A stretch of DNA of 64,000 bases from contig OU612075.1 in the NCBI GenBank assembly GCA_914767715.1, positions 3,226,001 through 3,290,000 of the forward strand, written 5' to 3'. The notes beneath the pieces are model-generated. The model had not been told where the DNA came from, did no database searches, and worked only from the letters and a program-made list of their open reading frames with translations. Positions 4,636 through 60,422 of this stretch are shown here, piece after piece. The position numbers and the translations under genes were made by a program. The stretch comes from Membranipora membranacea (taxonomy: Eukaryota; Bryozoa; Gymnolaemata; Cheilostomatida; Membraniporidae). Every line of letters starts with the position of its first letter. The first letter of the stretch is position 1.

Positions 4636-4640
4636 GCTGC
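4470..4640. repeat. Tandem inverted agctgtgag/ctcacagct hairpins
   Basis: Three successive units of agctgtgag or agctgtgaag followed by ttatctcacagct or gatctcacagct, separated by gactctcctgagtc, form alternating stems at the right end of the 3598-4635 insert. Confidence 0.65.
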
Positions 4641-5680: not shown

Positions 5681-5900
5681 TGTAAGAACTGCTAATTGTG
5701 ATGGCAATGAATAGTCTGTTTATTCTTCTGATAATAAATGATGATCTCTAACCAAGAAATCTAAACATGTTCAAGATGGTTGACAATAATAATTGGTATC
5801 AAGTTGGGCTGCTGTAATAAGCCACAATAGGGAGTAGACAACTCCAAAATAGTAATGTATAAGTTAGGGAGTAAACAACTCCAAAGTAGTAGTCACTACA
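5681..5900 (-). repeat. 3' LTR of the Ty3/gypsy element
   Basis: 220 bp; read on the minus strand it starts TGTAGTGACT and ends AGTTCTTACA. It matches the LTR at 10427-10646 except for one position (aaaatagta here, aaagtagta there). The purine-rich stretch just inside it (minus-strand aaaagcgga next to 5901) is the likely polypurine tract. Confidence 0.95.
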
Positions 5901-6079
5901 TCCGCTTTTATGTCAATTACTTTGACGTTGAGCACCAGGTTCATGGTGGCGGCAACTAAGAATGTTTTGTGTCTCTGTATGTAATTATACTTGTTGTATA
6001 CTGGAGATATCTGTGTAACATGATTTCTCATGGTGACTGACTCCACAGTTTCTCATGCTTCTTTTGAAACATCCAGTCA

Positions 6080-9000
6080 CTAGGTGTGGTACTCGGTCAC
6101 GAAACCATCATATTTAGCTGGCCGATTCTTAGCTCGTACAGATTTACGAGGAGTAGGCACATTTGGTTGTGATGAGCTGGGCATATTGGCTGCCTGAGGT
6201 ATATCTTCGATCTCGACAAGTGCCGGTGGTACTGTAGGCGGCGTCACTTGAACTGGTCTATCTGTTACCGTCTCAGTATCGTTCTCTGACCTTGGTATTA
6301 TCGGTATCATCTGTGATGGGCGGGTGGCTACTAAGGCTCCCTGCGTTTCAGAATCCACGTCCGCATCTACAACAGGTTTCTCAGAGCAGTAATACGGTCT
6401 AACATGGCTTATGTTACGCTTATACAGCCGGCCTGCCCTGGATTTTACAGTGATCTGAGAGCCTTTTATGTCCATTACCACAAATGGATCTGGGTGGAAC
6501 AGTGTCTGACATTTAGATGGACTATCTCTCTTAACCAAAACAAAACTGCCTATCTCTAGCTGGTGATTATTGCCACTACCAGTTTCCAACTTCTCGTTAC
6601 GGGTGGCTATCATCTTATGTTTCATCTCACTATCTCTATCTCTAGCTTCAACGTCATCAAAACTATTAGGCAGACTTGGCAAGTTAGTCCTAAGCACACG
6701 CCCAAATAACATCTCTGCTGGGCTTTTGCCAGTAATGGAATGTGGTGTATTACGATATGTAAACAGCCATGTCATGAGGGCACTCTCATAGTCTACCCTA
6801 TTGTTGTGTGCAATCTGAATACGCTTCATTATGAATCTGTTTTGTCTCTCCACTTGACCATTGGCCTCAGGCCACCTAGGGGTTGTCAGACACTGTTCGA
6901 TACCATACCCGGAGCAAAACTCACCATACTCATGAGAGATAAACTGTGGCCCGTTGTCACTCTTCATGCTGAGTGGATACCCATGCGTAAAAAATACTGA
7001 TTTCAGCCAAGAAATAACATCACTAGCTTTTGTGACTGTCATGAACTTTACTTCGTTCCACCTACTATAATAGTCTGTTAAGACTAGAACTGACTTACCG
7101 TTAGACAGGGGACCCAAAAAATCTAAGGCAAGATCTTCCCATGGTCCATTGGGAAGTTCTGTCACCCTTACTGGCTGCCTATCTAGTGGCTTACTGGTCA
7201 ACTGACAATCGTGACAGTGTTTAACATACTTGTCTACATCAGAGTCGATTCCGGGCCACCAGACTCTTGTTCGTAGATATCTCTTGGTGCCTCCCATCCC
7301 ACTATGACCCTCGTGAGCTATCTCAAGCATCTTCTGTCTGAGCTCTTGAGGTACTACTATCCTACCTCCCCTCAAAACTAACTCCCCTATGACACATAAC
7401 TCATTTTTAATGGCCCTATATACAGCTGGTATATCAACATTGTCGAATGAATTCGCTCTTATAGCTTGTTTTAAGGCCTTAATCTCCTCATCCATATAAG
7501 AGACTTCCTCAATATAGCGGGGTGTGATTGCCGATGGCACATTGTCCTCCACAACACTACGTACATAGAGCTCAACATTTTCCCTTTCTACCAGGTGTTC
7601 AGTCGCCTTTTTCGAACATAGAAGCCTTGACAGGGGGTCAGCAATATTATCTGAGCTTTTTACGCGAACTATCTCAAAATCATATGACTGTAAACGAAGC
7701 TGCCACCTCTCTATACGAAGGGATGTCCTCTTGGTTTTGTTTCCATAAATGGACTCAAGAGGCTCACAATCAGAAACCACTTTGAACCGACAACCAAAGA
7801 GATAATGATGAAACCTCTCACATGCCCAGACAATACCTAGAGCTTCTTTTTCTGTCTGCATGTATCTTTTCTCGACATCAGACAATGCTCTACTTCCATA
7901 GCTAACCACTTTGGGCTCGCCATTTTGAATCTGTACCAGTATTGCGCCTAGCCCCACAGGACTGGCATCTGTGTACAGCAGAGTCTCACAACTAGTATCG
8001 AAGTGAGTCAAAGTATCATGATTACATAAATCAGCCTTTAGCTGATTGAAAGCCACAATCTCCTTATCTGACAAACATATAGCCTCTCGGGAATTTTTAC
8101 CCGCTGACAACCTCCTCAACACATCAGTTGTGTGAGAGTAATGTGGAATAAACTTAGACATATAACTAGTCAAACCGAGGAAACTCTTCAACTCACCAAC
8201 TGTCTTAGGAACAGCAGCATCTTTGACTGCCTTGACTTTGCAACCATGGGGATCAATACCCTTGTAACTAAGGAGATGTCCGAGAAACTCTAACTGCTGA
8301 ACCCCAATCTCACACTTCTTTTTATTCAGAGTCATGTTAGCCTGCTCTAGACGACTGAACACCTCACCCAGCCTATGATCGTGCTCTTCCCTTGTTTTGG
8401 CATGGACAATGATATCATCGGCAAGATTTGCTACACCCGGCAGGCCTTGGATAATTTTGGCGACCTCCTTCTGGTATATTTCTGGAGCCGCATTTATCCC
8501 AAACATGAGTCTCTTATATCTATATAGGCCTAAATGAGTACTGAAAGTTGTGATATCCCTGGACTCAGGGTGAAGAACAAATTGGTGGAACCCCATGCGC
8601 ATGTCCAGCTTCGAAAAGTACTGAGCCCCATTCATGTCATATAGCATCTCGTCTACGGTGGGGACTGGGTGTTGGTGCCTAACTATAGCCTCATTGGCTC
8701 TCCTCATATCAATGCATAACCTAATCTTACCGGATTCCTTCTTTGGAATGATCACTGCTGGACTTACCCATGATGACCCTGAATGACCTTCGACTTTCTC
8801 TATTATATCATGTGCGATAAGCTCATCTAAGTGAGCGGCTAGTTTATCTCTCAACAACAGTGGCACTCTTCGGAATGGCTGAGCAACAGGCGCTATATCA
8901 TCTCTAATTGTCAGCTTTATCTCATTCTTAGACTTACCCAATACCTCTGAGAACAGCCTTGGATATCTAGCTTCATAATCATCTAAGCCTACTCTATTTA

Positions 9001-10294
9001 TAATCCTGATTACACCTAGTTGTTTACCTGTTTCATTTCCCAACAAAGATTCACCTTTATTAGGAATAACAGTAAATGCGACATCTTCTAAAACAGCAGT
9101 GTTGTTATGCAGCTGTAAATCACACCATACCCTACCTACTGGCTGAATAGGCTCTTTGGCTGTGTACGGGAGAATCTTTGGTCCTCCACTGATGAACCGT
9201 TTGATAATAAACTTACTTGCTCTCAAACGTTCATAGGTATCCCGTGACATCACATTGCACTCTGACCCTGAGTCTATTATAAACCTCGCTGATACACCAC
9301 CGACATAGACATTAACTCTGTCTAGAGAGTTACTATTACACACTAAAGGTACATGGTAAGAATTGAATACAAATTCTGGGCTCTCAGAATTATTGTTCAC
9401 TGTTTCAGGGCTGGCTTGCTGGTGATCCCCCACATTTACATTGTTGGCCCTTCTAGATCTGTAATATCCTGCATTCGCACCTTGGCCATTCTGTTTGGCC
9501 TTGTTTTGACAGCACCGAGCATAGTGATTCATTCCATCACACTTACGGCACTGTTTTCCATATGCCGGGCACTCACGAGGTTTGTGTGTGAGATTACAAC
9601 GGGGACATACATTAGCACCCTCAGTCTCTTGTGTGAAACTAGGTTTTCTGGCAGTGGATCCAGAGGCCACACGGTTTATTGCCGAGGCATTATTCATCTC
9701 CCGGGACCTTTGGACCACAGCTTCATGTGTTGCTGACCGTGTCAATAGTATTTGCAATGTAAGTGCATTTCCCTCTTCCAATAGCTTTTCCCTCAACTTA
9801 TCGGCTGTGCAACCTTCTACTATTTGATCACGGATTTGGTTATTCACAGCTTGGGCATCGCCATAATCACAATGGGTGGCCAATTTTCTGAGTCTAGCAC
9901 AGTATTGGGATATAGTTTCGGTTTCCTTCTGTATACATTGCCTAAACATGTGTCGCTGATAGGTGATGTTAGGAGCTATATGGAAATGGCCTTGTAGAAC
10001 AGCTACCATTTCAGTATATTGATCTCTCTGTGTTTGATCAAGTGTGCTATGAATTTCCCTTACTCTTGGGCCTGCATGATATAGTAATAAAGCTTTCCTC
10101 TGGGCTCTCATATTTGCATTATCTTCCCCTGCCAAATTGAACAGCCCTTTTGAATCAGCAAAAGCCTCAAATTCCTCAAGCCAAGCATCCCAATTGACTG
10201 ATACTGTGCTAGCATCCCCATCTGGTGTGAAATGACTTGGGCCTCTGGTATCCATTTGCCAGTTTGGATTGATACAGCAATAAATAGTAAACAA
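6080..10294 (-). CDS. Gag-Pol polyprotein, Ty3/gypsy
   Basis: A single 1,404-residue frame with no gag/pol shift. The N-terminal ~200 residues are capsid-like. Two CCHC-type zinc knuckles lie at about 230-262, and an aspartic protease with DSG at 341-343. The reverse transcriptase spans about 470-680, with LDMRMGFHQF at about 563 and the active site LADD at 624-627 in place of the usual YxDD. RNase H carries LLYTDAS at about 772, followed by ADPLSR. The integrase has an H2C2 finger (H994 to C1027/C1030) and D-D-E residues near 1058, 1113 and 1149. A C-terminal extension of about 200 residues is proline/serine rich. Overall it looks like the K02A2.6-like (Mag-related) animal lineage. The start may be internal at residue 14. 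It appears intact. Numerous long plus-strand frames across it are shadows. Confidence 0.95.
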   Translation of the reverse strand: MFTIYCCINPNWQMDTRGPSHFTPDGDASTVSVNWDAWLEEFEAFADSKGLFNLAGEDNANMRAQRKALLLYHAGPRVREIHSTLDQTQRDQYTEMVAVLQGHFHIAPNITYQRHMFRQCIQKETETISQYCARLRKLATHCDYGDAQAVNNQIRDQIVEGCTADKLREKLLEEGNALTLQILLTRSATHEAVVQRSREMNNASAINRVASGSTARKPSFTQETEGANVCPRCNLTHKPRECPAYGKQCRKCDGMNHYARCCQNKAKQNGQGANAGYYRSRRANNVNVGDHQQASPETVNNNSESPEFVFNSYHVPLVCNSNSLDRVNVYVGGVSARFIIDSGSECNVMSRDTYERLRASKFIIKRFISGGPKILPYTAKEPIQPVGRVWCDLQLHNNTAVLEDVAFTVIPNKGESLLGNETGKQLGVIRIINRVGLDDYEARYPRLFSEVLGKSKNEIKLTIRDDIAPVAQPFRRVPLLLRDKLAAHLDELIAHDIIEKVEGHSGSSWVSPAVIIPKKESGKIRLCIDMRRANEAIVRHQHPVPTVDEMLYDMNGAQYFSKLDMRMGFHQFVLHPESRDITTFSTHLGLYRYKRLMFGINAAPEIYQKEVAKIIQGLPGVANLADDIIVHAKTREEHDHRLGEVFSRLEQANMTLNKKKCEIGVQQLEFLGHLLSYKGIDPHGCKVKAVKDAAVPKTVGELKSFLGLTSYMSKFIPHYSHTTDVLRRLSAGKNSREAICLSDKEIVAFNQLKADLCNHDTLTHFDTSCETLLYTDASPVGLGAILVQIQNGEPKVVSYGSRALSDVEKRYMQTEKEALGIVWACERFHHYLFGCRFKVVSDCEPLESIYGNKTKRTSLRIERWQLRLQSYDFEIVRVKSSDNIADPLSRLLCSKKATEHLVERENVELYVRSVVEDNVPSAITPRYIEEVSYMDEEIKALKQAIRANSFDNVDIPAVYRAIKNELCVIGELVLRGGRIVVPQELRQKMLEIAHEGHSGMGGTKRYLRTRVWWPGIDSDVDKYVKHCHDCQLTSKPLDRQPVRVTELPNGPWEDLALDFLGPLSNGKSVLVLTDYYSRWNEVKFMTVTKASDVISWLKSVFFTHGYPLSMKSDNGPQFISHEYGEFCSGYGIEQCLTTPRWPEANGQVERQNRFIMKRIQIAHNNRVDYESALMTWLFTYRNTPHSITGKSPAEMLFGRVLRTNLPSLPNSFDDVEARDRDSEMKHKMIATRNEKLETGSGNNHQLEIGSFVLVKRDSPSKCQTLFHPDPFVVMDIKGSQITVKSRAGRLYKRNISHVRPYYCSEKPVVDADVDSETQGALVATRPSQMIPIIPRSENDTETVTDRPVQVTPPTVPPALVEIEDIPQAANMPSSSQPNVPTPRKSVRAKNRPAKYDGFVTEYHT

Positions 10295-10408
10295 TACTTA
10301 TCTTATTCTGTCTATTCCAGAGAGCTCACAGCTATTTCTTCACACAGAAAGTTTAGCAGCTTATCTTGTCAGATTCACTATTTGTGATATTTTTTTTTGA
10401 ACTCATAA

Positions 10409-10425
10409 TCCCATCCTCGTCGCCA
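10409..10425 (-). other. Primer-binding site
   Basis: On the minus strand TGGCGACGAGGATGGGA begins one base inside the right (5') LTR. The leading TGG matches the CCA end of a tRNA, as expected for minus-strand primer binding. I do not assign the tRNA. Confidence 0.75.
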
Positions 10426-10426
10426 T

Positions 10427-10646
10427 TGTAAGAACTGCTAATTGTGATGGCAATGAATAGTCTGTTTATTCTTCTGATAATAAATGATGATCTCTAACCA
10501 AGAAATCTAAACATGTTCAAGATGGTTGACAATAATAATTGGTATCAAGTTGGGCTGCTGTAATAAGCCACAATAGGGAGTAGACAACTCCAAAGTAGTA
10601 ATGTATAAGTTAGGGAGTAAACAACTCCAAAGTAGTAGTCACTACA
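10427..10646 (-). repeat. 5' LTR of the Ty3/gypsy element
   Basis: 220 bp, same termini and length as the LTR at 5681-5900, followed by the GTGGC target duplication. In the element's orientation this is the promoter-bearing copy. Confidence 0.95.
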
Positions 10647-11536
10647 GTGGCTGGCTAAGGCAGTGGAACTTCAAGTTTTTGCTGATACAAACGATATGAG
10701 AGGATTCTATCAGAGTATGAGGGCTGTCTGGGGGCCCACGTATCAGTCACCCGGACCAGTTACTAGCATGCAACCAGACAACGCTGCTCACAGAAAAGCA
10801 AGATCTTCTCAATAGATGGACAGAGCATTTCAGCAAGCTGCTAAATGAGGCTCCAGTAAAAACCTGAGACAAGCCCCTGTTCAAAACTGGATGGATAGAT
10901 GCCCGGAAATTGATGAGATCTCAAAGGCTATTGACATGGTTAGTGATGGTAAATCACCTGGTTCCGACGGGATTCATCCTGAAGTAATCAAGAGGGGAGG
11001 TCCAAAACTGCTATGTGCTCTTTGGGAGATCATTAAAGAAGCCTGGAACACAGCTACAGTTCCTCAAGATTGGAAGGATGCCCAACTTGTCACCATCTTT
11101 AAGAAGGGTGACCGACGACTATGCGGTAACTACAGAGGGATCTCTCTTCTATCCATTACTGGAAAGGTTTTCGCAAGGGTCCTACTCAACCGACTCTCGT
11201 CGTATGCTGAAGGCTTCTTACCCGAGGCACAGTGCGGGTTCCGGAGTGGAAGAGGTACGGCAGACATGATCTTCTCCTTGAAGCAACTCCAGGAGAAAAG
11301 CATTGAACAAAATATGCCATTGTACATGATCTTCGTCGATTTTACTAAAGCGTTTGACACCGTTGACCGGACTACTCTGTGGAAGATGCTCCTGAAGCTG
11401 GGATTTCCAGATCACTTTACTAATCTTATCAGCGCTTTACATACCGGCATGAAAGCCTCGGTTAAACGGAAGGGTGAGCTGTCAAGTCAATTTCAAGTAA
11501 ACAACGGCGTCAAACAAGGATGTGTACTGGCTCCCA
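10647..11536 (+). pseudogene. Non-LTR retrotransposon, reverse transcriptase half (truncated)
   Basis: This continues the element broken at 5680. The linker reads LAKAVELQ and GFYQSMRAV, then a frameshift near 10768 (the neighbouring frame gives LLNRWTEHFSKLL) and a stop. The main RT frame runs 10891-11536: SPGSDGIHPE, WKDAQLVTIFKKG, NYRGISLLS, CGFRSGRGT, FVDFTKAFDTVDR and NGVKQGCVLAPT. It ends there, before the catalytic (F/Y)xDD, exactly where block A begins. The 3' end was therefore lost in the rearrangement that placed block A, or block A replaced it. Confidence 0.9.
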
Positions 11537-11589
11537 CTCCCTCAATTGGCTTTTGAAAACATAGAAAGAAAGAAAGGCTCTTATTCTCT

Positions 11590-11913: not shown

Positions 11914-14900
11914 ATGGATTGCCAACAGTTTGGTTCACAAGTCACCTTGATCAGCCAACCATCAGAACCGTACAAAGTCACTGTGTCAAGCAGGAATGAC
12001 AGTAAGGCTGAAAACTCTGAGAGCAATGGCAGAAAAGATATACGCATCACGCTAAGACTGTGTTATGATACAGTGGTTTCACTTCTGCTGATCTCAATCA
12101 TCACCATTGCAACGATCTATATAAGTCACCTACAAAACCATGTCCAGAGAGTCGACAACAGAGCTGAAGATCTTGCAGCAAGAGTTATAAGCTTGGAGAA
12201 CTTTATCGACAGCCTGGACATCAACAGTATTGTGAGTGTTCTTTAAAACATCTATCAGTTCTACATCGGTTAAGGGAACCCAGGTAATTTGTTAAGGCCT
12301 GCGCCAGCAAGGAAGCTTGTGCAAAACACAACACCGACGTCTCTGATTCTCCATACAACAATTTGCTGTCGACTGTTTCCCCTTTAGTGTATCCCTGCCT
12401 AATGGTCATAACGCACAGCAGTTGCATCCTCAGCGGTTTACACAACGTCACCATTGTTAACATATATGCTTATCAGCAGCCTCAGCTGATCCTCAGAGGT
12501 TTGATCAGCGGTTGCAACCTCAGAGTGCAGAGCGGTTTGCACGACATCACATAACTAACATATAAGCCTCAGCTGATCCTCAGAGGATTGATGTGTATAT
12601 AAATACTCATTGAGGGTCCGCTGAGGTTGCAACCTCTGCCAGTGTGTTTAGTCTATTAAGCGTTTCATACCCAAGAATTGTTGGACAATTCTGTACAATT
12701 CTAGAATTGTTCGAAACTGACCCATATATCATTACCCAACCAGCAACCATTATTGTGTAACTAACCCTGCCTGCTAAATAAATAACATTCATTATTACTA
12801 TTGTATAGTTATAGTATCAGCCTTTACAGTTTTAGTCAATATTATATAATTAGATTGACAATGTATTCAATTAGTTTGTATTTAGATGACCAGGCAAGAT
12901 CTCTTATAATGAATAGATTTTGCTGTGCAAGGTAGCATCAAGTCTATAACGCGGGAGGCACAGGTTTAAATCCCCGCCGGGGCAAATCTTTTCTTTTCGT
13001 CATGATGGAAATCGAAAGCATTCCATTCAAATTGTCCGCTCACAATTTTTGTAAGCACAGAAAACTCTTAGTAATGAGTATGATGACCCGACAAAATACT
13101 TATGTTCAACTCTTCTGTGTTGTACCATACCCTAAGTTATATTTTGTGCAATATGTTAATATTGGCAGCAACTGCATAAATAGAATACATCCGCTAAACT
13201 ATGCTAGCAGAATTATCAGAAGAATTTGCTACTTATAAAAATGTACAACATCGCTCACCAGTTGAGCGAGGAATTACTTTGTATCAATTGTCCTACATGC
13301 CTAAGTGGAGAGAAGTGATATGTGAATGAGGCCATATTTTCCACAGAACCACTGACTACTGAAAATATGCTGACTGATGCTAAAAAAACTCAAACTTGGT
13401 GTCACAGCAAGAAGTATGAGTACTGATTATTGGCATAGTCTCAACTACGCTCCTTGTGATTATTGAGAGTGAATGGCTCTCAGCTATTTCTATTTGTTAG
13501 CCAAAGATGCTCTGAGCATGGAGTTGGCTCTGAATGTTATGGTATGTGGGCTGAGGGAGACAAAGGTAAATCAACTATTGTAAGCCTGGTATATATTCAT
13601 TACCTGTCTACAAAGGAGCTCTTGATGTTATACTATATCACCCTCAACCATCTCAGTTATATGGTGTACAGGAAGCAATTTTGGCATTTTTCTCTCTCAC
13701 TCTTGAATGGTAGTTCCCTAGTATGTGTTGGCACTAGTACAGATAGTATTAAAATGTTAGACTAAGACTAGTGGCAACACCGGTTAAAGTAATAAACCTT
13801 TCAATCTAATGTAGAGTGTTGAGTTTGATAGACATAATACAGCCCAGCCGGCAAGGTTTAGCTCTATAGAGGTTGCCAATGGGCAGCTTTATTGTTGGCC
13901 AATATCCTCTGACATCACCTGTCTTTGATGGGTAAGCCAGAGGGAGCCAGATATCCCCATTTCCCAGCAACAGATATAATTGGTTGTAGATGCTCTACTT
14001 TTATACTCTATTTTCTTGCCATCGGCGGTTGCAGAAATAACTTTTCTGGACTGACAACACATATCCAACACTCAAATATTAATGTATTTACCATCTATTA
14101 GTATGGCTCCAGGATGAGAACAGTTTACTCCCCATTGTTTTCGACAGGGCTCTCAACCACTCAGGTTTAGCCCGAGTTACTCAGATTTTTGGGTTCAACT
14201 CAGGCTTCTCAGGGGATTTTAGAATGTAGGCTAAAAACTCAGATTTTGCTCGTTGGCAGAGATGAATAATATATAAACAATGTTAAATGTTGCCTTACAA
14301 TAATTTATGCCATATTATTAATGAATGATCAGGTATTAGATTCTAGTTGTGATAAGCTATGTAAATAATACTGCACTGCCTAAACTAATAATACCAAAGA
14401 TTATAAATACTCTCACTGCACTGCCTATTCAAGTCATTTATGTGAAATTGATATGTCTAAATTCCAATTTGCATTTGAGAATGCTTTTGAAATTTACTTG
14501 TAACGAACTTGACATGATTGAATGAATCTAGTCTCTAATTTGAATACACTAATAATAATAAATTTTATTTATGAAACGCTTAATACAATTGTTTAAAAAC
14601 AATGATTTCTAAGCGTTATAGAATATCGACACATTACACCCGCACCCCAACTGAGATGAATAATAAAGATAATATCAAACTTTTGCATCAGAATAATGTG
14701 TGGTATTTGCTGTGGGTATTTTATTTCATTTGTGATAAGCTATGCTCTTATTGAACTGCCAATCCCAGTGATTTGCGATAGATTATTATGTCTAAATAGA
14801 AGTTGGAATTTTAGATATGTTAAAAAAGTGATTTTGCAGGTGAACCGGATAAATCCAGGCAATGATTTTCATAGCATCACATTACATTAATTATGCCTTT

Positions 14901-17900: not shown

Positions 17901-20900
17901 TGACTGAGTAGGCTTTAATCACAGCCTGTTATGACTGATAGTATGTGTTTACTACAATCTTGCACGCCTGCAACCTCAGACATTCCACTTGTAGGTTTCA
18001 TAGAATCGTATCTATGATTAAGATTAGATATAAAGGTTATCGCATACAGGTAGAGTGTTAGTATGCATAAAGACGTTTACAATTTTAATCTGTCCCAAAG
18101 TTCAGTGTAAGGCAAAAGTTCAAAACACACACACACATCTGAAATTAGTTGAACTTATGTAATATACTATGTTGTTGTTGTCTTTCATTAGCCTTGTTCA
18201 CGTGGCCATGTGTTTTGGTTGTGTTGGTTTCGGTTCCCAAAATCAAAAAAATCAAAACCGTGGCCACATGACAAGGCTAGTCTACCATGCTTTTGGTCAC
18301 ATCCTGGATTTTGGCCCAGGTAGTGATACTGATACTGCTATGGTATTGTAGATAAGCACAGAGAAGGGTGATAAGGAGAATGAACAGTACCGAAGGAAAA
18401 GAGAGGTGTCTCATGAAAACAACATCCTAGATAGGACCAGGGAACACAGTGGAGAAGTGGTGAAACGATCTATATATACATATCGAGATATAGACCCAAA
18501 TGAGTCAGGACACAAACGAGAAGAACACCATGGTAAACAATATGTCAATGTATCAATGCCATTAGTCTTAGCCCCCCCCCCCAAACAGCTTTCGCCCCTG
18601 CCTGACGGCCCCCTGATGCTAAAATGTTAAAGGCCTACACACTACACTAGATTATTTTCATTACACCACGACCATTCCTCCTTTTTTGAAAGTAATGCAA
18701 TATCATTATTGACAATAACGATAAACATTGGTGCTCAAAAGGGATGCATGTGCACGTTATGCTAGGAAATTCAGAAAGTTCTTCTCTTCCTAATATATTT
18801 CTGGCTTGCATTGATGTCTAATCTATCTTAGTCTGAGCCCCCCAGAATTTTGCCCCTCGCCCGACAGTCCCCCGGCGAGGGAAAGCCTGAGAACAATGCA
18901 GGATCTTGATGGAGTTCTCTGCTCTTGAGTGTTATAAGTTAATCAAGGGGAGCACTAAAGCTGCAATATCTATTGATTTCTATTCATGCCACCTACTATA
19001 TTGCTCCAGGTATGAGAGTTTTTCAGTCAGACTCTGGGAAAAGTAGCCTCATGTTTGGGCAATACCCATGAGCAGAGATATTCACTGCCAAGTAGTGAAG
19101 AAAATGTCAGCCAGAATTTCTTTCATTTTGAATAAGGGCGGTCATTCACGACATTGACAAAAGGTCATACAATGTGTATTATTGGACCCTAGGCTATATG
19201 AAGTAATATTAATGAAGAAGTAATGAGAGGAAAAATCCAAGCAAATCCTGCAAAGTGCGTAGACTAAATCTATCTAAGAACTTTATGAAACTAACAATTC
19301 AATATGTGTACCTTTTGTAGGTATTGGTGCATCGAATATTGCGTATATATCTGCTGATATCGAGAAAATAAACAGAGAGCTACAACTCTCAAATACAGGT
19401 GAGCTCTATCTATACTATATAAACATAATCCATTCAATGTTTAGATTGTTGAAATATCTCATAGCTCAATGAAAGGTGGGTGGGGTAGCCTGAGCAGGCA
19501 GTGGAGTGGGTGGGGCAGGCTAGGGCGTGGGAAATAGTATGAACGTTCCAAAAATCTATTGGTGTCTTTTTTCTAGAATATTAACCATAACAAACGGATT
19601 GAGGGTCCAGAGAAAGCAAGATATAGTCAAGTTTAGCAATAAATTTTCCAGCAGGACAATCCGTTGCGTTGAGTTTCCCGTGATTGCCCTTACACTACTC
19701 TACTTGTTAGTGTTTCACATTGAATTAAAATGTTGTGTGTTTCCAGGTTTTACCCGACGACATCGCTCGAGGTCAGGGTGTGTGAGGCTGTTTGAGAAGG
19801 ATGACGGGCAGCGCCTCTGTACGGCATCCCCGTCACGACCTTATGACCTTTTTATGACAAGCAGTAAGAATGATATTATAATGTTTACTATTTTGTGTGT
19901 CTAAAAGTAATTCAGGAAGAAAATGTCAGACTGACGGATTTTGATACAGCAGTTGAATTTTAAATCACTGTCATTGAAGTCAATTCGGCAGCTAGATGTG
20001 CTAGTCTATAATGGTATTTGATTGCCAAAATTTGAAAACATATATTCACTTTTTTATGCATACAGTCTCCCATTAGACTTTGTCTAATACATAAGCTGTA
20101 CAAGTTATTTTCTACTTTTGATCGAAACTTCTAGCTCTATTATAATACCAAGTTCATCTTTGATTTACAGTAAAAAATGTTCCTATGATCATCAGAAAAG
20201 TCTTTCGTTTTATGAAGAGTTTTGTGTTGATATAGTTTATTTAGATCCCTTGAGGATCAATTTTGAGAACTGATTGTGTATCTTGACTTACAGAGTCAAC
20301 ATTCTGTCAAAGTTTGGTCCATTTGCCTGCATTCAGAGCTGCTCCCCCTCCCCTGGTTACACCGCTGCGACGTGACCAGTGGAGGGGAGAAATGGAATGC
20401 AGGCAAATGGATCAAACTTGACCTAGTACCACTCTGACATAGTATCACCATCTTCTGTAGTGGCCAATCGCAGATTCCCTTACATGACCAAAGCTCCCTG
20501 GATGAGATCTGATAATAAATTTGAATATCACGAGAATGGAGAGCTGACTGTGAAGGAATCCGGCATATATATTGTACATTCAAATGTGAGTGAGTTACTA
20601 AGTTACTAATCTCAAGAATGGCTCCGCAATAGGTAAGGTCAGGCTTAGATGTAGTCCAAGTGCTCAGATGGCTCCATTGCGAGTTAGTGGTTGATAATGT
20701 AATGCCGCTAACTCGCAATGGGGCCGTTTTAGAACTTAGACTTGCTGAGATGGGATTTCATGCAGAGTTTTTTGGCTATACTGACTCTGGATATGACATA
20801 ACAGACTGATAGTCAGTTGTTAAATAAACCTTGGCCAAGTAGATATCTTTACCTAGAAGGACTCAGGTCCAAATCAGATGCTGTGAAAGAAGAGAGTGAA

Positions 20901-23900
20901 GGATGATGACCTATGCGTTTATTCGGCAGATCCACTTCACGGACAAAAGCGATGAGCCAGACTACGGAGTATATTACAAGCGAAACAAAACTCGTACAGT
21001 CGGAGAGAGTAGAGACAACTCTGAGGGTACAGAGCTTGAGAGGGTGCTCATCAGTATGTGTCGGGTGTCTGCTACAGATAAGGAAGGATCTGGGGTATTC
21101 CCCTGTCCAACATGGCAGGTATGTTATATATGGTGTATTCCCCTGTCCGACATGGCAGGTATGTTATCTGGTTCATTTCCTGCCCAACATGGCAGGTATG
21201 TCATATCTGGTATATTCCCCTGTCCGACATGGCAGGTAAGTCATATCTGGTGTATTCCCCTGTCCAACATGGCAGGTATGTCATATCTGGTATATTCCCC
21301 TGTCCGACATGGCAGGTATGTTATATCTGGTATATTCCCCTGTCCGACATGGCAGGTAAGTCATATCTGGTGTATGCCCCTGTCCAACATGGCAGGTATG
21401 TCATATCTGGTATATTCCCCTGTCCAACATGGCAGGTATGTTATATCTGGTTTATTTCCTGTGAAACATGGCAGGTATGTATATGTTTGTTGTTACCTCA
21501 GGATCCATTAATGCTGTCATAAAAGGGATGCTAATCACTATCCAGCAGATATTATAGTGACATACCAATTTGTGATGTACCTTAATGTTTGATTTAGCCA
21601 AAGATTGAACTTCTCAAGAGGTATTGACATGGTTGGATTGAGTGCTATTATTTTTCCTCTTTTTCCGCTTTAATCCATCAAATTGCACAGTCTTCCCATT
21701 ATGCAATGCTTTGGACTTCCCAGATAAATAAAGTCAAATTTTTTCTCCCTGATACCAAGTACCATGTAATTTTTTAATTTTTATTTTGTTGGGAGTTGTT
21801 TTCTCACAGAGTAAAATAGAATGACTCATAAAATGTTTTCTACATCCCACTTATAAAATAAAAAGGTATGGTAGAAAGTTCATCCATTCTCCCTGGTTGA
21901 ACATTCATGAACCTTGATTACAAACAGAAACAGATGCACAAGAACAACCATCTGAGGGCCCTGAGCGTGTTTATTGAGTTATTGAATCTTAGTTTGATCA
22001 ATGGAAACAAAAACCTGTGCTCCTAGACAATACTGTGTGCCATGAGAATGTTTTGTCTTTTATATAATATATATCTGGCTGACCATGTTAGATTTATTTA
22101 TCAATATGGATAATAAGTAGGCTATGGCTACAGCAGATCTTCTCAGCTCTTTATTATTTTATTCATTGACCCTCCTCTATACCACTGAATAGATAGTATA
22201 GGCAGCCCACTGTATGTATAGGTAGAATAGATAGATACTGCTTAACTTGCTGGCTAGATAGGCAAAAGCAGGTTGAACTTTTAGAGGTAGGATAATAGTA
22301 TTTGGGTACCCAGGCATAGTTGACCTGCAATTTTTTAAAATTGATTTCATTACTAAACAAGCAAATCACGATATCTCAAAAAATTTCATCTGCTGGTCCC
22401 TTACCCTGTCTTGACAAGCTTTGTCGGAGGGGTTCCCCTCTCCTTCCAGCAATGCTTGTCAAGAAAGGCCACTGTTTGCCATGGTCTTGCAGGATGTGGC
22501 ACTTTGAAGACTTCTCTTTCAGAGAGTATACAATAACAAATTCAATAAAAAATTTAAGAGGTTAACGGTTCCCATAATGCATATTTATGGAATTACCAAA
22601 GTATATTGAGGCCAATTATAATTTGACTTGAATTTTTTAGGGAAACCCATTTATAATATAACCATGGCCATTAACAATAAGCCGCTGGGTCACAAAGCAA
22701 TATTAAATTCTGTAAATTTCCAACTGCACTATCACGGGTTCTGGAAAACGCGGAAAGGCGGAAAATCAGTTTCATCGCGGAAAGGCGTTTTCCGCGTTTT
22801 CGAAAATGCGGAAAATCGTTTATCACCTTGAATTTGTTGATGATGTTAAAAAAAACTACTGGAAAGACATTGAGACATCACCACTGTATCATATGAGGGT
22901 TTTTGGTAAAAATCAATTGATAAAAATAATTTTTTTGGAAAATGCGGAAAATATTTTTTTCCTCAAAAATATTGATCTCAATGCATAGAAATTGAACTTT
23001 AACCCATTAAGATATCATCCCCATCTTTTAACGGCCTGAATTTCAGGTTTTTTCATTTTTGGGAAATGCGGAAAATCGTTTTCCGCGTTTTCGAAAATGC
23101 GGAAAATCGTTTTTCACCTAGAATTTCATGATGATGCTAAAAAAAACTACTGGAAAGACATTGAGACATCACCACTGTATCATATGAGTGTTTCTGGTAG
23201 AAATCAATTGAAAAAAATATTTTCTTTGGAAAATGCAGAAAATATTTTTTTCCTCAAAAATTGATCTCAAAGCATAGAAAATGAACTGTAACCCATTAAG
23301 ATATCCTCCCCATCTTTTAGCGGTCTGAATTTCAGGTTTTTTCATTTTTGGAAAATGCGGAAAATCGTTTTCACCTTGAATTTGCTGATGATGCTAAAAA
23401 AAACTACTGGAAAGACATTGAGACACCACCACAGTTAAAGTTCATTTTCTATGCATTGAGATCAATTTTTGAGGAAAAAAATATTTTCCGCATTTCCAAA
23501 AAAATTATTTTTATCAATTGATTTTTACCAAAAACACTCATATGAAACAGTGGTGATGTCTCAATGTCTTTCCAGTAGTTGTTTTTAGCATCATCAACAA
23601 ATTCAAGGTGAAAAACTATTTTCCACGTTTTCTAAAAATGAAAAAACCTGAAATTCAGGCCGTTAAAAGATGGGGATGATATCTTAATGGGTTACAGTTC
23701 ATTTTCTATGCATTGAGATCAATTTTTGAGGAAAAAAATATTTTCCGCATTTCCAAAAAAATTATTTTTATCAATTGATTTTTACCAAAAACACTCATAT
23801 GAAACAGTGGTGATGTCTCAATGTCTTTCCGGTAGTTGTTCTTAGCATCATCAACAAATTCAAGGTGAAAAACGAATTTCCACGTTTTCTAAAAATGAAA

Positions 23901-25471
23901 AAACCTGAAATACAGGCCGTTAAAAGATGGGGATGATATCTTAATGTGTTACAGTTCATTTTCTATGCATCGAGATCAATTTTTGAGGAAAAAAATATTT
24001 TCCGCATTTTCCAAAAAAATTATTTTTATCAATTGATTTTTACCAAAAACACTCATATGAAACAGTGGTGATGTCTCAATGTCTTTCCAGTAGTTGTTTT
24101 TAGCATCATCAACAAATTCAAGGTGTAAAACGATTTTCCGCATTTTCGAAAACGCGGAAAACGCTTTTCCACGATGAAACTGATTTTCCGCCTTTCCGCG
24201 TTTTCCAGAACCCGGCACTATCATTGACCCACTGTCAAGGTCTTTTGTCCAGGATTTGAGTTTACAAACTGCATAATTCTAGTGATATGAATACAATTGC
24301 CAGTTACGCAATGCAAGCGGTAATATCGCATCCTATTGTATGCTAATGGCTCCTATGGTATCCTGTTGAGGTTTTATTATCATACCATAAAACCATAAAG
24401 TTGCATCTTGGGAATGATGTAAAAATTCCTTATTCAGTAGATAAAGGGTAAGTCATAAAGAGATAAAGGGATTCATGCATAAATGATTTAACATTTATGG
24501 TATTTCAAGTAGTGTAAAAGCCTCTTAACAACTTTAAGCGTAGCCTATATTAAACATGACAGCATATTTCAAGCTTGACATGTATGCAGATATTTGCCTT
24601 ACTTGTGCTATATCTTGATTAGCACCCATTATATGACAGCATTAATGGATTCTGAGGTAACAATAAACGACCCTAGAAAGTGAAAAAATGATTCAAATAA
24701 CCTGAAAAATACACAACAATTATGCATGGCACAATATATAATGTTGATATTCAACTCCCCACCGTGTTTTGCAGTTTGTATGCTCCTTTCTACTTCTCGC
24801 AACATATCATCATCACCAATTTGCATCAAATGAGATGACAACTTCGTATTTTTATTGAGTTGCGACATTTGCGACGTTAGTGGGTTCGAGCTATTGCGAC
24901 GTTTAAAAAATTGCAACGTTTGTGGGTTTGCAACGTTTTAAAAACCCTTCGTTGCGACGTTTTTTGGATTGCGACGTTTTTTGGATTGCGACGTTTTTTG
25001 GATTGCGACGTTTTTTGGATTGCGACGTTAGTAGAACGCTAGATTGCGACGTTTTGACGTTTGCGACATTTGTGGGTTCAACAGGCACTTTGTCATTAAT
25101 CAAACAGTATGTTTTGTTAATCAGACAGTACACTTGAAAGGCTGTAGGTAACAGGTCGGCTAGTTCCATTCTGACTGCTATGTAAATATATATTCAAAGT
25201 TGCCTCGATCTATTATAACTCTATTTTCTGTTATCTTGACTTGTCCTGTGTTGAGTGGCGCAGCAATGTGTACTCACCAGCCCAACAATTAATTGTGTGG
25301 AGATAACTTCTGTTTACCGCATACAGCATACAATGTTTTTTGTTGTAGCTGATCCCGCTGAAAGCTAGAGATCGGATATATATGAGAATATCAGGATATA
25401 AGTGGTTCAAATTTGAGAAGGAGACATTCCACTTGGCTCTGATAAGACTGCACGACTGGCCTGGGTTATAA
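11914..25471 (+). CDS. TNF-superfamily ligand, copy A (EDA-like)
   Basis: Seven exons, 376 residues, all GT-AG and in phase: 11914-12231, 18352-18532, 19321-19398, 19747-19863, 20461-20585, 20930-21118, 25349-25471. It encodes a type II membrane protein: a 52-residue cytoplasmic tail, a transmembrane segment at about 53-71 (VVSLLLISIITIATIYI), a short coil, then a stalk with a furin site RRKR (120-123). The TNF homology domain spans about 205-372. Support for it includes NGELTVKESGIYIVHSN (strands B'-C), two cysteines flanking the EF loop (CRVSA...FPCPTW), PLKARDRIYMRI and the terminal TFHLALIRL. PLKAR and the cysteine spacing recall ectodysplasin. The product would be a shed trimeric cytokine; receptor unknown. 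The exon 6 donor lies in a 40-bp minisatellite. A poly(A) signal is at 26022. Intron 1 is 6.1 kb and full of inserts. Confidence 0.88.
12661..17109. mobile_element. 4.4-kb element with ~555-bp inverted terminal repeats
   Basis: The left arm (12661 to about 13223) and right arm (about 16555-17109) are inverted copies beginning CGTTTCATACCCAAGAATTG. Block B lacks the whole segment (its sequence runs from ...attaag straight to cagctcattg), so it inserted in intron 1 of copy A. Each arm contains a tRNA-like stretch with a B-box (GGTTCAAATCC on the minus strand near 16800-16815; GGTTTAAATCC near 12963). The 3.3-kb interior has no recognisable transposase. It holds a diverged SINE body (about 16340-16445) and a roughly 110-bp block repeated at about 15895 and 16190. 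No clear target duplication was seen. Confidence 0.85.
17462..17779. mobile_element. 318-bp non-autonomous TIR element
   Basis: Ends are CATGGGCGTATATTAC on the left and, inverted, CATGGGCGAATATTCC on the right, flanked by tATCCGGG / aATCCGGG. Block B has the single uninterrupted site (taatccgggaaatcc). An imperfect 8-bp duplication suggests a hAT-type MITE. The interior is A/T-run rich and non-coding. Confidence 0.75.
18189..18279. repeat. Hairpin repeat (shared with block B)
   Basis: Inverted arms tagccttgt..cgtggcca and tggccac.tgacaaggcta face each other across about 50 bases. An equivalent hairpin is at 33029-33119 in block B, so it predates the duplication. It lies just upstream of the stalk exon. 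Confidence 0.7.
20306..20424. repeat. Hairpin MITE, same family as 2.3 kb
   Basis: Arms gtcaaagtttggtccattt... (20306-20333) and the inverted ...aaatggatcaaacttgac (20398-20424). The core matches the hairpin at 2338-2423. Block B lacks it at the equivalent point of intron 4 (attctgttggtaccactctg), so it inserted after the duplication. Confidence 0.8.
20669..20726. repeat. Intron hairpin conserved in both TNF copies
   Basis: ctccattgcgagttagtgg and ccgctaactcgcaatggggc form a 19-20-bp imperfect stem, 85 bases after the exon 5 donor. The block B equivalent is 35221-35274, with one arm base changed (ccactaactcgc). Confidence 0.75.
21095..21476 (+). repeat. 40-bp minisatellite carrying a splice donor, 10 units (copy A)
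   Basis: CATGGCAGGT recurs at 21111, 21151, 21188, 21228, 21268, 21308, 21348, 21388, 21428 and 21467 (the last with one base missing). Spacing is 40 except 37 once and 39 once. The first unit is the 3' end of TNF exon 6 (FPCPTWQ) plus its donor CAG|GTATGT. Every unit repeats that donor, and units 4 and 7 have the stronger GTAAGT. The exon 6 frame stays open across the whole array to 21511. Units 1, 4 and 7 are in the same phase. Confidence 0.95.
22410..22463. repeat. Hairpin, cttgacaagc type
   Basis: CTTGACAAGC at 22410-22419 and its inverse GCTTGTCAAG at 22454-22463 enclose a C/T- and G-rich loop. Related cttgacaagctttgtt hairpins occur near 47971 and 48699. Confidence 0.6.
22735..24214. 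mobile_element. 1.48-kb foldback element (giant palindrome)
   Basis: Starts CGGGTTCTGGAAAACGCGG and ends with its inverse, flanked by a perfect 9-bp target duplication GCACTATCA (22726-22734 and 24215-24223). Inside, a module containing ACTGGAAAGACATTGAGACA appears three times in direct orientation (about 22857, 23150, 23405). It appears three times inverted (about 23560, 23815, 24073), so the element folds on a centre near 23.43 kb. It has no coding capacity. It is inserted in intron 6 of TNF copy A and absent from block B. Confidence 0.9.
24862..25070. repeat. 17-bp ttgcgacg tandem array
   Basis: Perfect 17-bp units (TTGCGACGTTTTTTGGA) start at 24952, 24969, 24986 and 25003, with a partial at 25020. 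Looser ttgcgacg or ttgcaacg copies lie on both sides. It is part of the A-specific expansion of intron 6. The open minus-strand translation merely mirrors the repeat. Confidence 0.8.
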
Positions 25472-31250: not shown

Positions 31251-34200
31251 ATGGATTGCCAACAGTTTGGTTCACAAGTCACCTTGATCAGCCAACCATC
31301 AGAACCATACAAAGTCACTGTGTCCAGCAGGAATGACAGTAAGGCTGAAAACTCTGAGAGCAAAGGCAGAAAAGATATACGCATCACGCTAAGACTGTGT
31401 TATGATACAGTGGTTTCACTTCTGCTGATCTCAATCATCACCATTGCAACAATCTATATAAGTCACCTACAAAACCATGTCCAGAGAGTCGACAACAGAG
31501 CTGAAGATCTTGCAGCAAGAGTTATAAGCTTGGAGAACTTTATCGACAGCCTGGACATCAACAGTATTGTGAGTGTTCTTTAAAACATCTATCAGTTCGA
31601 CATCGGTTAAGGGAACCCGGGTTTTTTGTTAAGGCCTGTGCCAGCAAGGAAGTTTGTGCAAAACACAACACCGACGTCTTTGATTCTCCATACAACAATT
31701 TGCTGTCAACTGTTTCCCCTTTAGCGTATCCCTGCCTAATGGTCATAACGCACAGCAGTTGCATCCTCAGCGGTTTACACAACGTCACCATTGTTAACAT
31801 ATGCTTGTCAGCAGCCTCAGCTGATCCTCAGAGGTTTGATCAGCGGTTGCAACCTCAGAGTGCAGAGCGGTTTGCACGACGTCACATTACTAACATATGA
31901 GCACTGATTTATAATACAATAATATAATAATCATAATAATAATAATAATAATTATAATATTATAAATCAGTGCATATAAGCCTCAGCTGATCCTCAGAGG
32001 ATTGATGTGTATATAAATACTCATTGAGGATACGCTGAGGTTGCAACCTCTGCAAGTGTGTTTAGACCATTAAGCAGCTCATTGAAGTGCATCCATCACT
32101 TTGATGCAGTATGGTCTTGGAACTAGTTGACAAAGGTGACCCCAGTGTTCCTTCTATGGTATGTGATATCACACCCAGTGGCCAACATATGAAAGGAGTC
32201 TAAAGGAACTAAGATTGTGTGATGAATTTACAAGCTGCAGATCAAAACCATAAAATTTGAAGCTTCTCGGCCTATTGGCTAAGATCAAAGTGTCACTGCC
32301 AATGGCCGATTAGTGCCGGTTCAGTTTTGGCAGCTCGCTGCACACTTATGATTAGGAGGTCCTCTATGGCCTCACCTCTAGGATGCATTCTAGTTTTCTA
32401 GGATGTATCACATACTCAGTATGAGGACTAGGGCACCTTGTGTCCCTCTTTAGGGGCCAGCCCAATCTTCTGTTTCTTAGCAAACACAAATTTGAAGCTT
32501 ACAGAGGGGAGCAGATTGGCAGTTGGCAGATTCAAACTAGATTTGCCAATAGATTGTCATGCGTTCAACGAATAGATAAGGGAAAACTTGCTCTTGCAAG
32601 GACCCTGGATATTACTAATCCGGGAAATCCCCTACATTCATAGCCATACGGCACAGCTTTTGACATGAACGATTATTGATTACCCTTTTCAACTGTCAAG
32701 TGTTTTGGCACATATAATAATACACTTTATTTCTTATTATTATATGTGTAAGTAGGTTTTAATCACAGCTTGTTACGTCTGATAGTGTGTGTGTGTTTAC
32801 TACAATCTTGCACGCCTGCAACCCTAGACATTCCACTTGTAGTTTTCATGGAACCATATCTATGATTAAGATTAGATATAAAGGTTAACGCATACAGGTA
32901 GAGTGTTAGTAAGCATAAAAAATTTGAAATTTAATCTGTCCCAAAGTTCAGTGTAAGGCAAAAGTTCAAAACACACACACATCTGAAATTAGTTGAACTT
33001 ATGTAATATACTTGTTGTTGTCTTTCATTAGCCTTGTTCACGCGGCCATGTGTTTTGGTTGTGTTGGTTTTGGTTCCCAAAATCAAAAAAATCAAAACCG
33101 TGGCCACATGACAAGGCTAGTCTGGTTGATTAAAAAAATGGTTGATTAAAATCAGATGACATATCACACGCCACATCCCGAAGCATGGGCGGCGAAATAC
33201 TAGTTGCCTTAGGGGCTAGGCTGCAATATCTGCGCCCATTTGCTCTCAGTTTGCAGGCAGGTCGGAGCACACCTGGGGGTCCAACCAAACCCCAGCAGTC
33301 AGTAGACTTCAGCGGGATTCGAACCCACGACCTTCAACATTTGCATGCTGAAGGGACGGCGCTCTAACCAACTGAGTCTACCATGCTTTTGGTCACAGAT
33401 CCTGGATTCTGGCCCAGGTAGTGATACTGATATGGTATTGTAGATAAACACAGAGAAGGGTGATAAGGAGAGTGAACAGTACCGAAGTAAAAGAAAGCTT
33501 TCTCATGAAAACAACATCCTAGATAGGACCAGAGAACACAGTGGAGAAGTGGTGAAACGATCTATACGAGATATAGACCCAAATGAGTCAGAACACGAAG
33601 AAGAAGAACACCATGGTAAACAATATGTCAATGTATCAATGCCATTAGTCTTAGCCCCGCCCCCCCTCCGCCCCCCCCAAACTCTCGCCCCCGCCTGACG
33701 GCCCCCTGATGCTAAAATGTTTAAGGCATATACACTACACTAGATTATTTTCATTACACCACGACCATTCCTCCTTTTTTGAAAGTAATGCATTATCATT
33801 ATTGACAATAACGATGAACATTGGTGCTCAAAAGGGATGCATGTGCACGTTATGCTAGGAAATTCCGAAAGTTCTTCTTTTCCTAATAATTTTTCTGGCT
33901 TGCATTGATATCTAAGATCTATCTAGATCTATCTAAGAACTTTATGAAACTAACAATTCAATATGTGTACTTTTTGTAGGTATTGGTGAATCGAATATTG
34001 CGTATATATCTGCTGATATCGAGAAAATAAACAGAGAGCTACACCTCTCAAATACAGGTGAGCTCTATCTATACTATATAAACATAATCCATTTAATGTT
34101 TAGATCATTGAAATATCCCATTGCTCAATGAAAGGTGGATGGGGTAGCCTGAGCAGGCAGTGGAGTGGGTGGGGCAGGCTAGGGCGTGGAAATAGTATAA

Positions 34201-36609
34201 GCGCTCCAAAAATCTATTGGTGTCTTTTTTCTAAAGTTATTAACCATAATAAACGGATTGAGTGTCCAGAGAAAGCAAGATGTGGTCAAGTTTAGCAATA
34301 ACTTTTCCAGCAGGACAATCCGTTGCGTTGAGTTGCCCGTGATTGCCCTTTACACTCTACTTGTTAGTGTTTCACATTAAATTAAAATGTTGTGTAATTT
34401 CAGGTTTTACCCGACGACATCACCCGAGATCAGAGTGTGGGAGGCTGTTTGAGAAGAAGGACGGGCAGCATCTCTGTACACCATCCCCGTCACGACCTTA
34501 TGACCTTTATATGACAAGCAGTAAGAATGATATAATTATGTTGACTATTTAGTGTCAAAAAGAAATACCGGAAAAAAATGTCGGATTTTGATACAGCAGT
34601 TGAATTTTAGATATCTGCCCATAGACTTAATATACTTAATATATTAAGTCTATACATCTGCCATTCAAGTCGATTTGGCAGCTAGATAGCTAGCTAATGG
34701 CCAAGTAATAATGAAATTGAATTGCCAAAATTTTGAACAAAACATTCACTATTTCATGCATACTGTCTCCCATTTGGCTTTGTCTGATGCATACGCTGCA
34801 TAAGTTGTCTTCTACTTGGTCAAAACTTCTAGCTTTCGTATTACCAAGTTCAGCTTTTATTTGCCATAAAAATGTTCCTATTTTATGGAAAGTTTTGGGC
34901 GGCATATTTTATTTTTATCCCTCCAGAATCAATTTTGAGAACATGAATTTGACTCTTAGAGTTGACATTCTGTTGGTACCACTCTGATGAAATATCACCA
35001 TTTTCTGTAGGGGCCAATCACAGATTCCCTTACATGACAAAGGCTCCCTGGATGAGATCTGATAATAAATTTGAATATCACGAGAATGGAGAGCTGACTG
35101 TGAAGGAGTCCGGCATATATATTGTACATTCAAATGTGAGTGAGTTACTAAGTTACTAATCTCAAGAATGGCTCCGCAATAGGTAAGGTCAGGCTTAGAT
35201 GTAGTCCAAGTGCTCAGATGGCTCCATTGCGAGTTAGTGGTTGATAATGTAATGCCACTAACTCGCAATGGGGCCGTTTTAGCACTTAGACTTGCTGAGA
35301 TTGGATTTCATGCAGAGTTTTTTGGCTATACTGGCTCTGGATATGACATAACAGACTGATAGTCAGTTGTTAAATAAACCTTGGCCAAGTAGATATCTTT
35401 ACCTAGAAGGACTCAGGTCCAAATCAGATGCTGTGAAAGAAGAGAGGGAAGGATGATGACCTATGCGTTTATTCGGCAGATCCACTTCACAGACAAAAGC
35501 GATGAGCCAGACTACGGAGTATATTACAAGCGAAACAAAACTCGTACTAACGGGGAGAGTGGATACAACTCTGAGGGTACAGAGCTAGAGAGGGTGCTCA
35601 TCAGTAGGTGTCAGGTGTCTGCTACAGCTAAGGAAGGATCTGGGGTATTCCCCTGTCCAACATGGCAGGTATGTTATATCTGGGGTAATTCCCTGTCCGA
35701 CATGGCAGGTATGTTATATCTAGTGTATTCCCCTGTCCAACATGGCAGGTATGTTATATCTAGTGTATTCCCCTGTCCAACATGACAGGTAAGTTATATC
35801 TGGTGTATTCCTCTGTCCACCATGGCAGGTATGTTAAATCTGGTGTATTCCCCTGTCAAACATGGCAGGTATGTTAAATCTGGTGTATTCCCCTGTCCAA
35901 CATGGCAGGTATGTTATAAGGGGCACTTTGTCATTTCCTGTCTGTACTTATGATAGCAAATGAGACAGTGATTACAATCGGATAAAAAGTGAAGTAAAAA
36001 TTAGAGCCGGCACATATTGCTCTGTTTCACATTAATCAAGCAGTACACTGAAAGTGAAAAGGCTGCAGGTTACAGTTCAGACTGGTTGCATAGTGCCCAC
36101 TATATAAAATTTGGATTCATCATAGTCTATTTTTATTACTACCCAATTTCCAGTTTTCTAGATGCGTTCTGTGTTAGTGACCAATCAATTTTCACTCACA
36201 CAACAACAATTTATGTGGAGATAAATCCTGATTTCTGATTATTTATATTGAGATACTTTCTTATGCTATAACAGAAATAAATCAAATTTTAACTCAAACC
36301 TTACCAACTCATCCTGTGTATTCACAATCTACTTTCCAAAACCTGAAATTATTATAGGACAGCAGGTGAGGGGTTACCAAGCCAAGCCGTGTCCACGCTA
36401 ACCGCTAACAATAATAAGATGCTGATCAAGCATAACCTTCCCGGGCAAGTACCTGTATTCAGGATTCAATGTTGTTATTTTTGTAGTTGATCCCGCTGAA
36501 AGCTGAAGATCGGATATATATGAGAATTTCAGGATATAATTGGTTCAAAATTGAGAAGGAGACCTTCCACTTGGCTCTGATAAGACTGAACGACTGGCCC
36601 GGGTTATAA
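31251..36609 (+). CDS. TNF-superfamily ligand, copy B (EDA-like)
   Basis: Seven exons, 373 residues, all in phase: 31251-31568, 33444-33615, 33980-34057, 34404-34520, 35011-35135, 35480-35668, 36487-36609. Same architecture as copy A: cytoplasmic tail, one transmembrane segment, coil, stalk with the furin-type site RSKR (exon 2) and a C-terminal TNF domain ending TFHLALIRL. Differences from A include a stalk three residues shorter (SIRDID against SIYTYRDID), GESN for GASN, and AEDRIYMRI for ARDRIYMRI in the last exon. Exon 6 ends in a seven-unit donor minisatellite. The poly(A) signal is at 37112. No frame lesions, so it is probably functional. Confidence 0.88.
31901..31973. repeat. 73-bp AT hairpin insert
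   Basis: gcactgatttataat... and the inverse ...ttataaatcagtgc enclose an (ATA)n loop, with atat on both sides. Copy A reads straight through (aacatataagcc), so this is a block-B-specific MITE. Confidence 0.7.
32266..32487 (+). mobile_element. U2 snRNA-headed SINE-like insert
   Basis: The insert opens with CTTCTCGGCCTATTGGCTAAGATC (starting within the target duplication). This matches the highly conserved first ~30 nt of U2 snRNA with one substitution and one extra A, then diverges into an unrelated body. A perfect 13-bp duplication AAATTTGAAGCTT flanks it (32253-32265 and 32488-32500), and copy A has the single empty site. Retroposition of a U2-derived short element is the simplest reading. 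The rest of U2 (branch-pairing and Sm regions) is missing, so it is not a functional U2 gene. Confidence 0.8.
33029..33119. repeat. Hairpin repeat (copy of 18189-18279)
   Basis: Same tagccttgt.../...acaaggcta inverted arms as in block A, one arm base changed (cgcggcca). Confidence 0.7.
33124..33374 (-). mobile_element. tRNA-derived SINE
   Basis: Read on the minus strand the head is tRNA-like: an A-box (AGTTGGTTAGAGCGC), an anticodon-type stem, then a B-box (GGGTTCGAATCCC). A non-tRNA body follows (gctggggtttggttgg ... gccgcccatgcttcggga) with a short tail of gattaaa repeats. AGTCT is duplicated at both sides and copy A has the empty site. Body fragments recur near 16350-16445. Confidence 0.85.
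35221..35274. repeat. Intron hairpin (copy of 20669-20726)
   Basis: gctccattgcgagttagtgg pairs with ccactaactcgcaatggggc. Position relative to the exon 5 donor is the same as in copy A. Confidence 0.75.
35645..35910 (+). repeat. 40-bp splice-donor minisatellite, 7 units (copy B)
   Basis: catggcaggt starts at 35661, 35701, 35741, 35781 (catgacaggt), 35821, 35861 and 35901, spaced exactly 40. The first unit is the true end of exon 6. Unit 4 has GTAAGT after CAG. But its G-to-A change turns the in-frame TGG into TGA, so the exon 6 frame closes at 35785, just before that donor. Units 2 and 3 are out of phase. Confidence 0.95.

Positions 36610-56982: not shown

Positions 56983-60422
<3,440 letters not shown>

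Follow-up and report, generated by a model that had tools for sequence, protein, structure and literature searches.

In a 64,000-nucleotide stretch of the Membranipora membranacea genome (contig OU612075.1; hereafter the window), the splice donor at the end of exon 6 of a TNF-ligand gene has become a 40-bp minisatellite, as the original prediction had proposed, and both paralogues of the gene in the window have such an array at the same exon 6/intron 6 junction. This confirmed the locus as another example of a known arrangement, the donor-spanning minisatellite, in a different gene and common to two paralogues. By analogy with the repeats of human F7 intron 7, we consider it probable that this is an F7-type array in which the most upstream donor (donor 1) is dominant and the other donors are normally silent or serve at most as backup.

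The window contains two copies (A and B) of a seven-exon TNF-ligand gene, both on the plus strand, according to exon models that we inferred from the sequence. The exons of copy A join in compatible phases through GT donors and AG acceptors, which gives a 376-residue protein. Copy B (31251 to 36609) is built in the same way and its reading frame is open too; the smallest of the introns modelled in A and B measures 344 bases. The modelled exons are as follows.

11914..12231, + strand: copy A exon 1, an ORF with donor GTGAGT, in phase with exon 2; N-terminus
18352..18532, + strand: copy A exon 2, with RRKR inside, a furin-like motif by eye
19321..19398, + strand: copy A exon 3
19747..19863, + strand: copy A exon 4
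20461..20585, + strand: copy A exon 5, where the TNF homology domain begins (Pfam TNF match)
20930..21118, + strand: copy A exon 6 up to donor 1, which aligns with human TRAIL (E 0.012)
25349..25471, + strand: copy A exon 7, beginning LIPLKAR, with its stop at 25469-25471
31251..31568, + strand: copy B exon 1
33444..33615, + strand: copy B exon 2
33980..34057, + strand: copy B exon 3
34404..34520, + strand: copy B exon 4
35011..35135, + strand: copy B exon 5
35480..35668, + strand: copy B exon 6 up to donor 1
36487..36609, + strand: copy B exon 7

The joined copy A protein matched the Pfam TNF family (PF00229) over residues 250-362 of 376 (E 2.8e-6; 27.7 bits, with a gathering cut-off of 23). 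The frame of unspliced exon 6 plus the array, taken alone, was below the cut-off of every Pfam family. The copy A domain therefore passes the cut-off for the TNF ligand superfamily (TRAIL, APRIL, BAFF), yet the similarity is weak, as the top PDB matches were a BAFF/APRIL fusion (E 1.1e-4) and TRAIL (E 0.012). A hydrophobic segment in copy A exon 1, identified by eye, is a candidate type II membrane anchor.

Both arrays were delimited with TRF.

21088..21484, + strand: copy A donor minisatellite, period 40, 10.1 copies; unit 1 straddles exon 6/intron 6
35638..35918, + strand: copy B donor minisatellite, period 40, 7.0 copies

Ten CAG|GT donors had been predicted for copy A and all ten were located (21119, 21159, 21196, 21236, 21276, 21316, 21356, 21396, 21436 and 21475), separated by steps of 40, 37, six times 40, and 39. 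Copy B has seven donors (35669 to 35909) with every step equal to 40. Under our own exon model, unit 1 of copy A (21088-21127, donor at 21119) crosses the exon/intron boundary. The repeated unit was originally thought to comprise the 24 terminal coding bases of the exon; it instead consists of 31 exonic and 9 intronic bases, with the exonic similarity starting at 21088 (ATCTGG). A CAG|GTGTCT in copy B exon 6 (35615) is not an array unit and was left out of the 17 donors considered below. A 25-base core of the unit, allowing up to 3 mismatches, occurs 16 times in the window (0 expected), always inside the two arrays, and is present in 16/17 units, with A10 being too diverged. We rejected the possibility that the unit is a piece of a mobile element, as there were 0 copies outside the arrays within the window at up to 3 mismatches. 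No unusual RNA fold was found for the copy A array (21060-21500; z -0.57, its stability being reached or exceeded by 24 of 100 shuffled sequences). Array-free paralogues were sought in the window by tblastn with each exon, which gave none, and with a model derived from both gene copies against window ORFs of at least 25 aa, which gave none among the matches listed, although a strongly diverged domain could escape such a search.

The units themselves hold a partial record of how the arrays arose. Unit 1 is identical in copies A and B, the CCGAC variant occurs in unit 2 of both copies as well as in A4, A6 and A7, and an A at one further column is found in A10 and B6 alone. Because these unit variants are common to both paralogues, an array of several units probably predates the gene duplication. 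Within copy A, a 120-bp block occurs twice (A4-A6 and A7-A9) with 2/120 bases differing; both differences change an amino acid in the exon 6 frame (I to M and R to Q), and A4 and A7 are identical 40-mers. This block repeat, together with the difference between 10 and 7 units, supports the alternative raised in the original prediction, that the array is a hotspot. Divergence between the gene copies is uneven: exons 6 and 7 differ by 6-7% (11/189 and 9/123 positions), introns 3 and 4 at 24/345 and 86/437 positions, and intron 5 is nearly identical (5/344; 20586-20929 in A, 35136-35479 in B). Such patchy divergence suggests gene conversion. Over 373 codons, dN was 0.041 and dS 0.084 (0.039 and 0.133 for exons 5-7), and since dN is below dS, both canonical proteins seem to be under constraint.

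All 17 donors are intact, with CAG|GT present in 17/17 units; the sequence is CAG|GTATGT in 14/17 and CAG|GTAAGT in 3/17 (A4, A7 and B4). These three match U1 perfectly (-11.6 kcal/mol) and are all in phase with donor 1, which pairs at -7.8 kcal/mol. Five other copy A donors gave -5.0, -5.3, -11.1, -4.5 and -5.0 kcal/mol. Donor 1 is thus not weak by U1 pairing, as four of those five score from -4.5 to -5.3. We aligned the units and, column by column, scored each distinct derived state as one change: the nine donor columns, out of 41, hold 1 of the at least 24 changes inferred in this way (P 0.02), which hints that the downstream donors may be kept. However, 4/41 nine-column windows are equally quiet, including the donor window, and a permutation test over 14-column windows gave p 0.077. 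We therefore rejected donor conservation as proof of function and regard it as suggestive only. Intact donors would be equally expected if the array were young or if it had been homogenised from unit 1.

As originally predicted, splicing of copy A from donor 1, 4 or 7 would keep the frame and add 0, 39 or 79 residues, respectively, and the exon 6 portion of each product ends with PCPTWQ. The other seven donors of copy A, donor 10 included, lead to stops no more than 7 residues past the junction. Donors 1, 4 and 7 of copy B are in phase as well, and a stop codon within its array intervenes.

21236..21241, + strand: copy A donor 4, GTAAGT, in phase, +39 residues
21356..21361, + strand: copy A donor 7, GTAAGT, in phase, +79 residues
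35783..35785, + strand: in-frame TGA in copy B unit 4, replacing the TGG (tryptophan) codon of other units

All downstream donors of copy B (6/6) yield truncated products, donors 2 and 3 because they are out of frame and donors 4 to 7 because of the TGA. A complete domain is encoded through donor 1 in both copies, and through 2/9 downstream donors in copy A and 0/6 in copy B.

Exon 6 of copy A had been described as open throughout, and its frame is indeed open from 20900 to the stop at 21509-21511, so that retention of the array would extend the protein to that stop; in copy B, the frame is open to the TGA at 35783. To interpret this openness, we used simulated arrays. When these were built from this exon tail, GT and 7 random window bases, 46% were open in all three frames, compared with 8% of arrays built from random 40-mers of the window. 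Openness is therefore likely simply because the exon tail is itself repeated. Array A contains 3 stops, all in one frame, while array B contains 7 spread over all three frames. We consequently rejected frame selection as a line of evidence, with 46% of comparable arrays being open and array B stopped in every frame; the open coding frame of copy A requires no selection.

We also considered where an insert would sit in the ligand. In the alignment with TRAIL (E 0.012), the exon 6/7 junction falls at QGG|LFELKKNDRI, which we take to be the start of strand F in TNF ligands. The two cysteines of exon 6 are 15 residues apart, a spacing that recalls the E-F disulphide of APRIL/BAFF/EDA and not the TNF-alpha pair. 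The original prediction placed the insert within the loop bounded by these cysteines, but four residues separate the second cysteine from the junction, so that the insert would lie outside the loop bounded by the two cysteines of unit 1. As all in-phase forms end with FPCPTWQ, the last copy of this motif could in principle take over the pairing and remake the disulphide. The 39-residue insert contains 3 cysteines and 2 charged residues and is hydrophobic (GRAVY 0.51), whereas the exon that would host it has a GRAVY of -0.94 and 20/63 residues charged; this contrast argues against a tolerated surface loop.

The anatomy of the arrays has a close counterpart in intron 7 of human F7. Its 37-bp repeats all contain a 5' splice site, of which normally only the most upstream is used (PMC6627357). 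That article also reports that a +5 mutation leads to exon skipping and to use of downstream cryptic sites (PMC6627357, citing Borensztajn et al. 2006), and the title of a work cited there places the mechanism in mammals. Here too, the first repeat element straddles the exon/intron boundary and the downstream units carry donors like the authentic one. The differences are that this is another gene with a 40-bp unit, that two paralogues carry the array and repeat number can be compared between them (10 versus 7 units), that three downstream donors have the perfect consensus, and that a reading frame runs across the whole of array A. In a literature search whose coverage left most subscription journals outside, we recognised no donor-spanning repeats other than those of F7, and a second case is possible; neither the available portion of PMC3778950 nor PMC9311317 mentions such repeats. 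The VNTR of TERT intron 6, with 38-bp repeats whose number affects splicing (PMC3948165), is a further parallel; the array described here differs in that it includes the donor and lacks an unusual fold.

Given the close likeness to the human F7 repeat, a quiet spare-part repeat seems likelier than a switch of protein length. In our reconstruction, a tandem duplication over the exon 6/intron 6 boundary (31 exonic and 9 intronic bases) would have seeded the 40-bp minisatellite, probably before the gene was duplicated, and array length would then have changed independently in the gene copies to reach 10 units in A and 7 in B. Splicing would most likely take place at donor 1, the most upstream, as in F7, with the remaining donors normally being silent pseudo-sites or, at most, a backup when donor 1 is damaged. 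The likeness is one of anatomy, and by analogy donor 1 should dominate here. Counting against this, the F7 mechanism was described in mammals, and the perfect U1 match of A4, A7 and B4 means that these donors could outcompete donor 1. In F7, by the account of Borensztajn and colleagues, the downstream sites are reportedly identical and sites of raised U1 complementarity are said not to compete.

Several other explanations were weighed against this one. The array might be a neutral intronic VNTR, with donor 1 used exclusively, no backup role, and downstream donors that are intact through youth or homogenisation. The paralogues do differ in copy number and in unit variants, a three-unit duplication is visible, and the significance of donor conservation is weak, which speaks for a neutral array. 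However, 17/17 donors are intact, and the F7 downstream sites come into use once the first is damaged (PMC6627357), so we consider strict neutrality unlikely. The CAG of each unit might also act as a 3' splice site, making the array one of juxtaposed acceptors and donors in which extensions leave as GT...CAG mini-introns, so that any first choice of donor would end in the canonical mRNA; the sites would then be recursive sites or newborn tandem-AGGT introns. Tandem duplication of an AGGT-containing segment is a described route of intron gain (the Rogers model, ATP2A1 and potato RdRp), and the same source describes multiple tandem 24-bp AGGT repeats in the fission yeast genes SPOG_01682 and SOCG_00815, where an intron extends over four or two of the duplicates, and a duplicated segment spanning an intron-exon boundary in potato RdRp (PMC4974935). 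Our locus likewise has a tandem segment containing AG|GT, but its AGGT coincides with the donor side of a boundary between exon and intron that already exists. In copy A, the 20 bases in front of each of the nine downstream CAGs are 55-65% pyrimidine, within the range of the acceptors of both gene models (n=12; 45-65%), yet they are poorer in T (0.25-0.40 compared with 0.35-0.60), and excision of a single unit would need a 40-base intron where the shortest modelled intron has 344 bases. We think such mini-introns quite improbable.

One reading offered in the original prediction was a built-in device for length variation. In such a device, choice among donors 1, 4 and 7 would place 0, 39 or 79 extra residues before strand F and so alter receptor binding or stability. 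Part of its basis held, as A4, A7 and B4 are all in phase with donor 1 and the 17 donors are intact. In copy A, moreover, donors 1, 4 and 7 share the end PCPTWQ, donors 4 and 7 are the two with a perfect U1 consensus, and phase is kept by the 37 step (the sole odd one besides the last, of 39) and by the 120-bp higher-order repeat. Set against this, the identity of A4 and A7 within the block repeat reduces the in-phase strong donors to at most two independent events, neither of the two differences between the 120-bp blocks is silent, an all-frame opening arises in nearly half of comparable simulated arrays, and F7 normally uses its first donor. Copy B, where every downstream donor truncates the product, and the composition of the insert, which is hydrophobic with three cysteines and little charge, make such a device in copy A less likely, and we find it very doubtful. 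Still less probable, and in our view highly so, is a division of roles in which the in-phase consensus donor of unit 4 is used in both copies, with A producing ligands that grow by steps of 39-40 residues through a fast-mutating minisatellite and B producing a ligand cut before strand F (a decoy or null form).

Under the favoured F7-type reading, with donor 1 used alone despite nine more donors within 360 bases, two of them better matched to U1, the locus would serve as a natural experiment on 5'-to-3' donor choice outside F7, in an unrelated gene whose second copy provides a replicate. If other donors are used, a TNF ligand would owe variation in its length to a minisatellite. In both cases, the locus allows joint measurement of repeat number, splicing and the form of the protein.

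Some neighbouring features were also recorded. Four more copies of the hydrophobic first exon of the TNF gene (38-43% identical) lie at 39826-40071, 42610-42888, 44259-44492 and 48386-48616. No TNF domain beyond copies A and B was recognised in the window, either by tblastn or with the A+B model among the matches listed, and the four first-exon ORFs have no Pfam match; they could be orphans, alternative starts, or genes with a diverged or distant domain. Intron 6 of copy A includes a 257-bp tandem repeat (23434-24152, 2.8 copies), for which self-comparison of the window gave no match in copy B; intron 6 of that copy is far shorter. Upstream of the TNF genes, an LTR retroelement (5681-10646) has 220-bp direct repeats that are 99.5% identical and a 1405-aa open frame on the minus strand (6083-10297), in which the RT, RNase H and integrase domains were above the cut-off and gag and protease below it. 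It is located between the endonuclease ORF (4624-5442) and the RT ORF (10849-11553) of a LINE-like element and is apparently a recent insertion into that element. Downstream, the ORF at 49506-49991 matches Pfam DUF6729 (E 4.3e-22), and an exon at 57880-58209 encodes an AAA ATPase (E 5.3e-15) that is katanin-like by eye.
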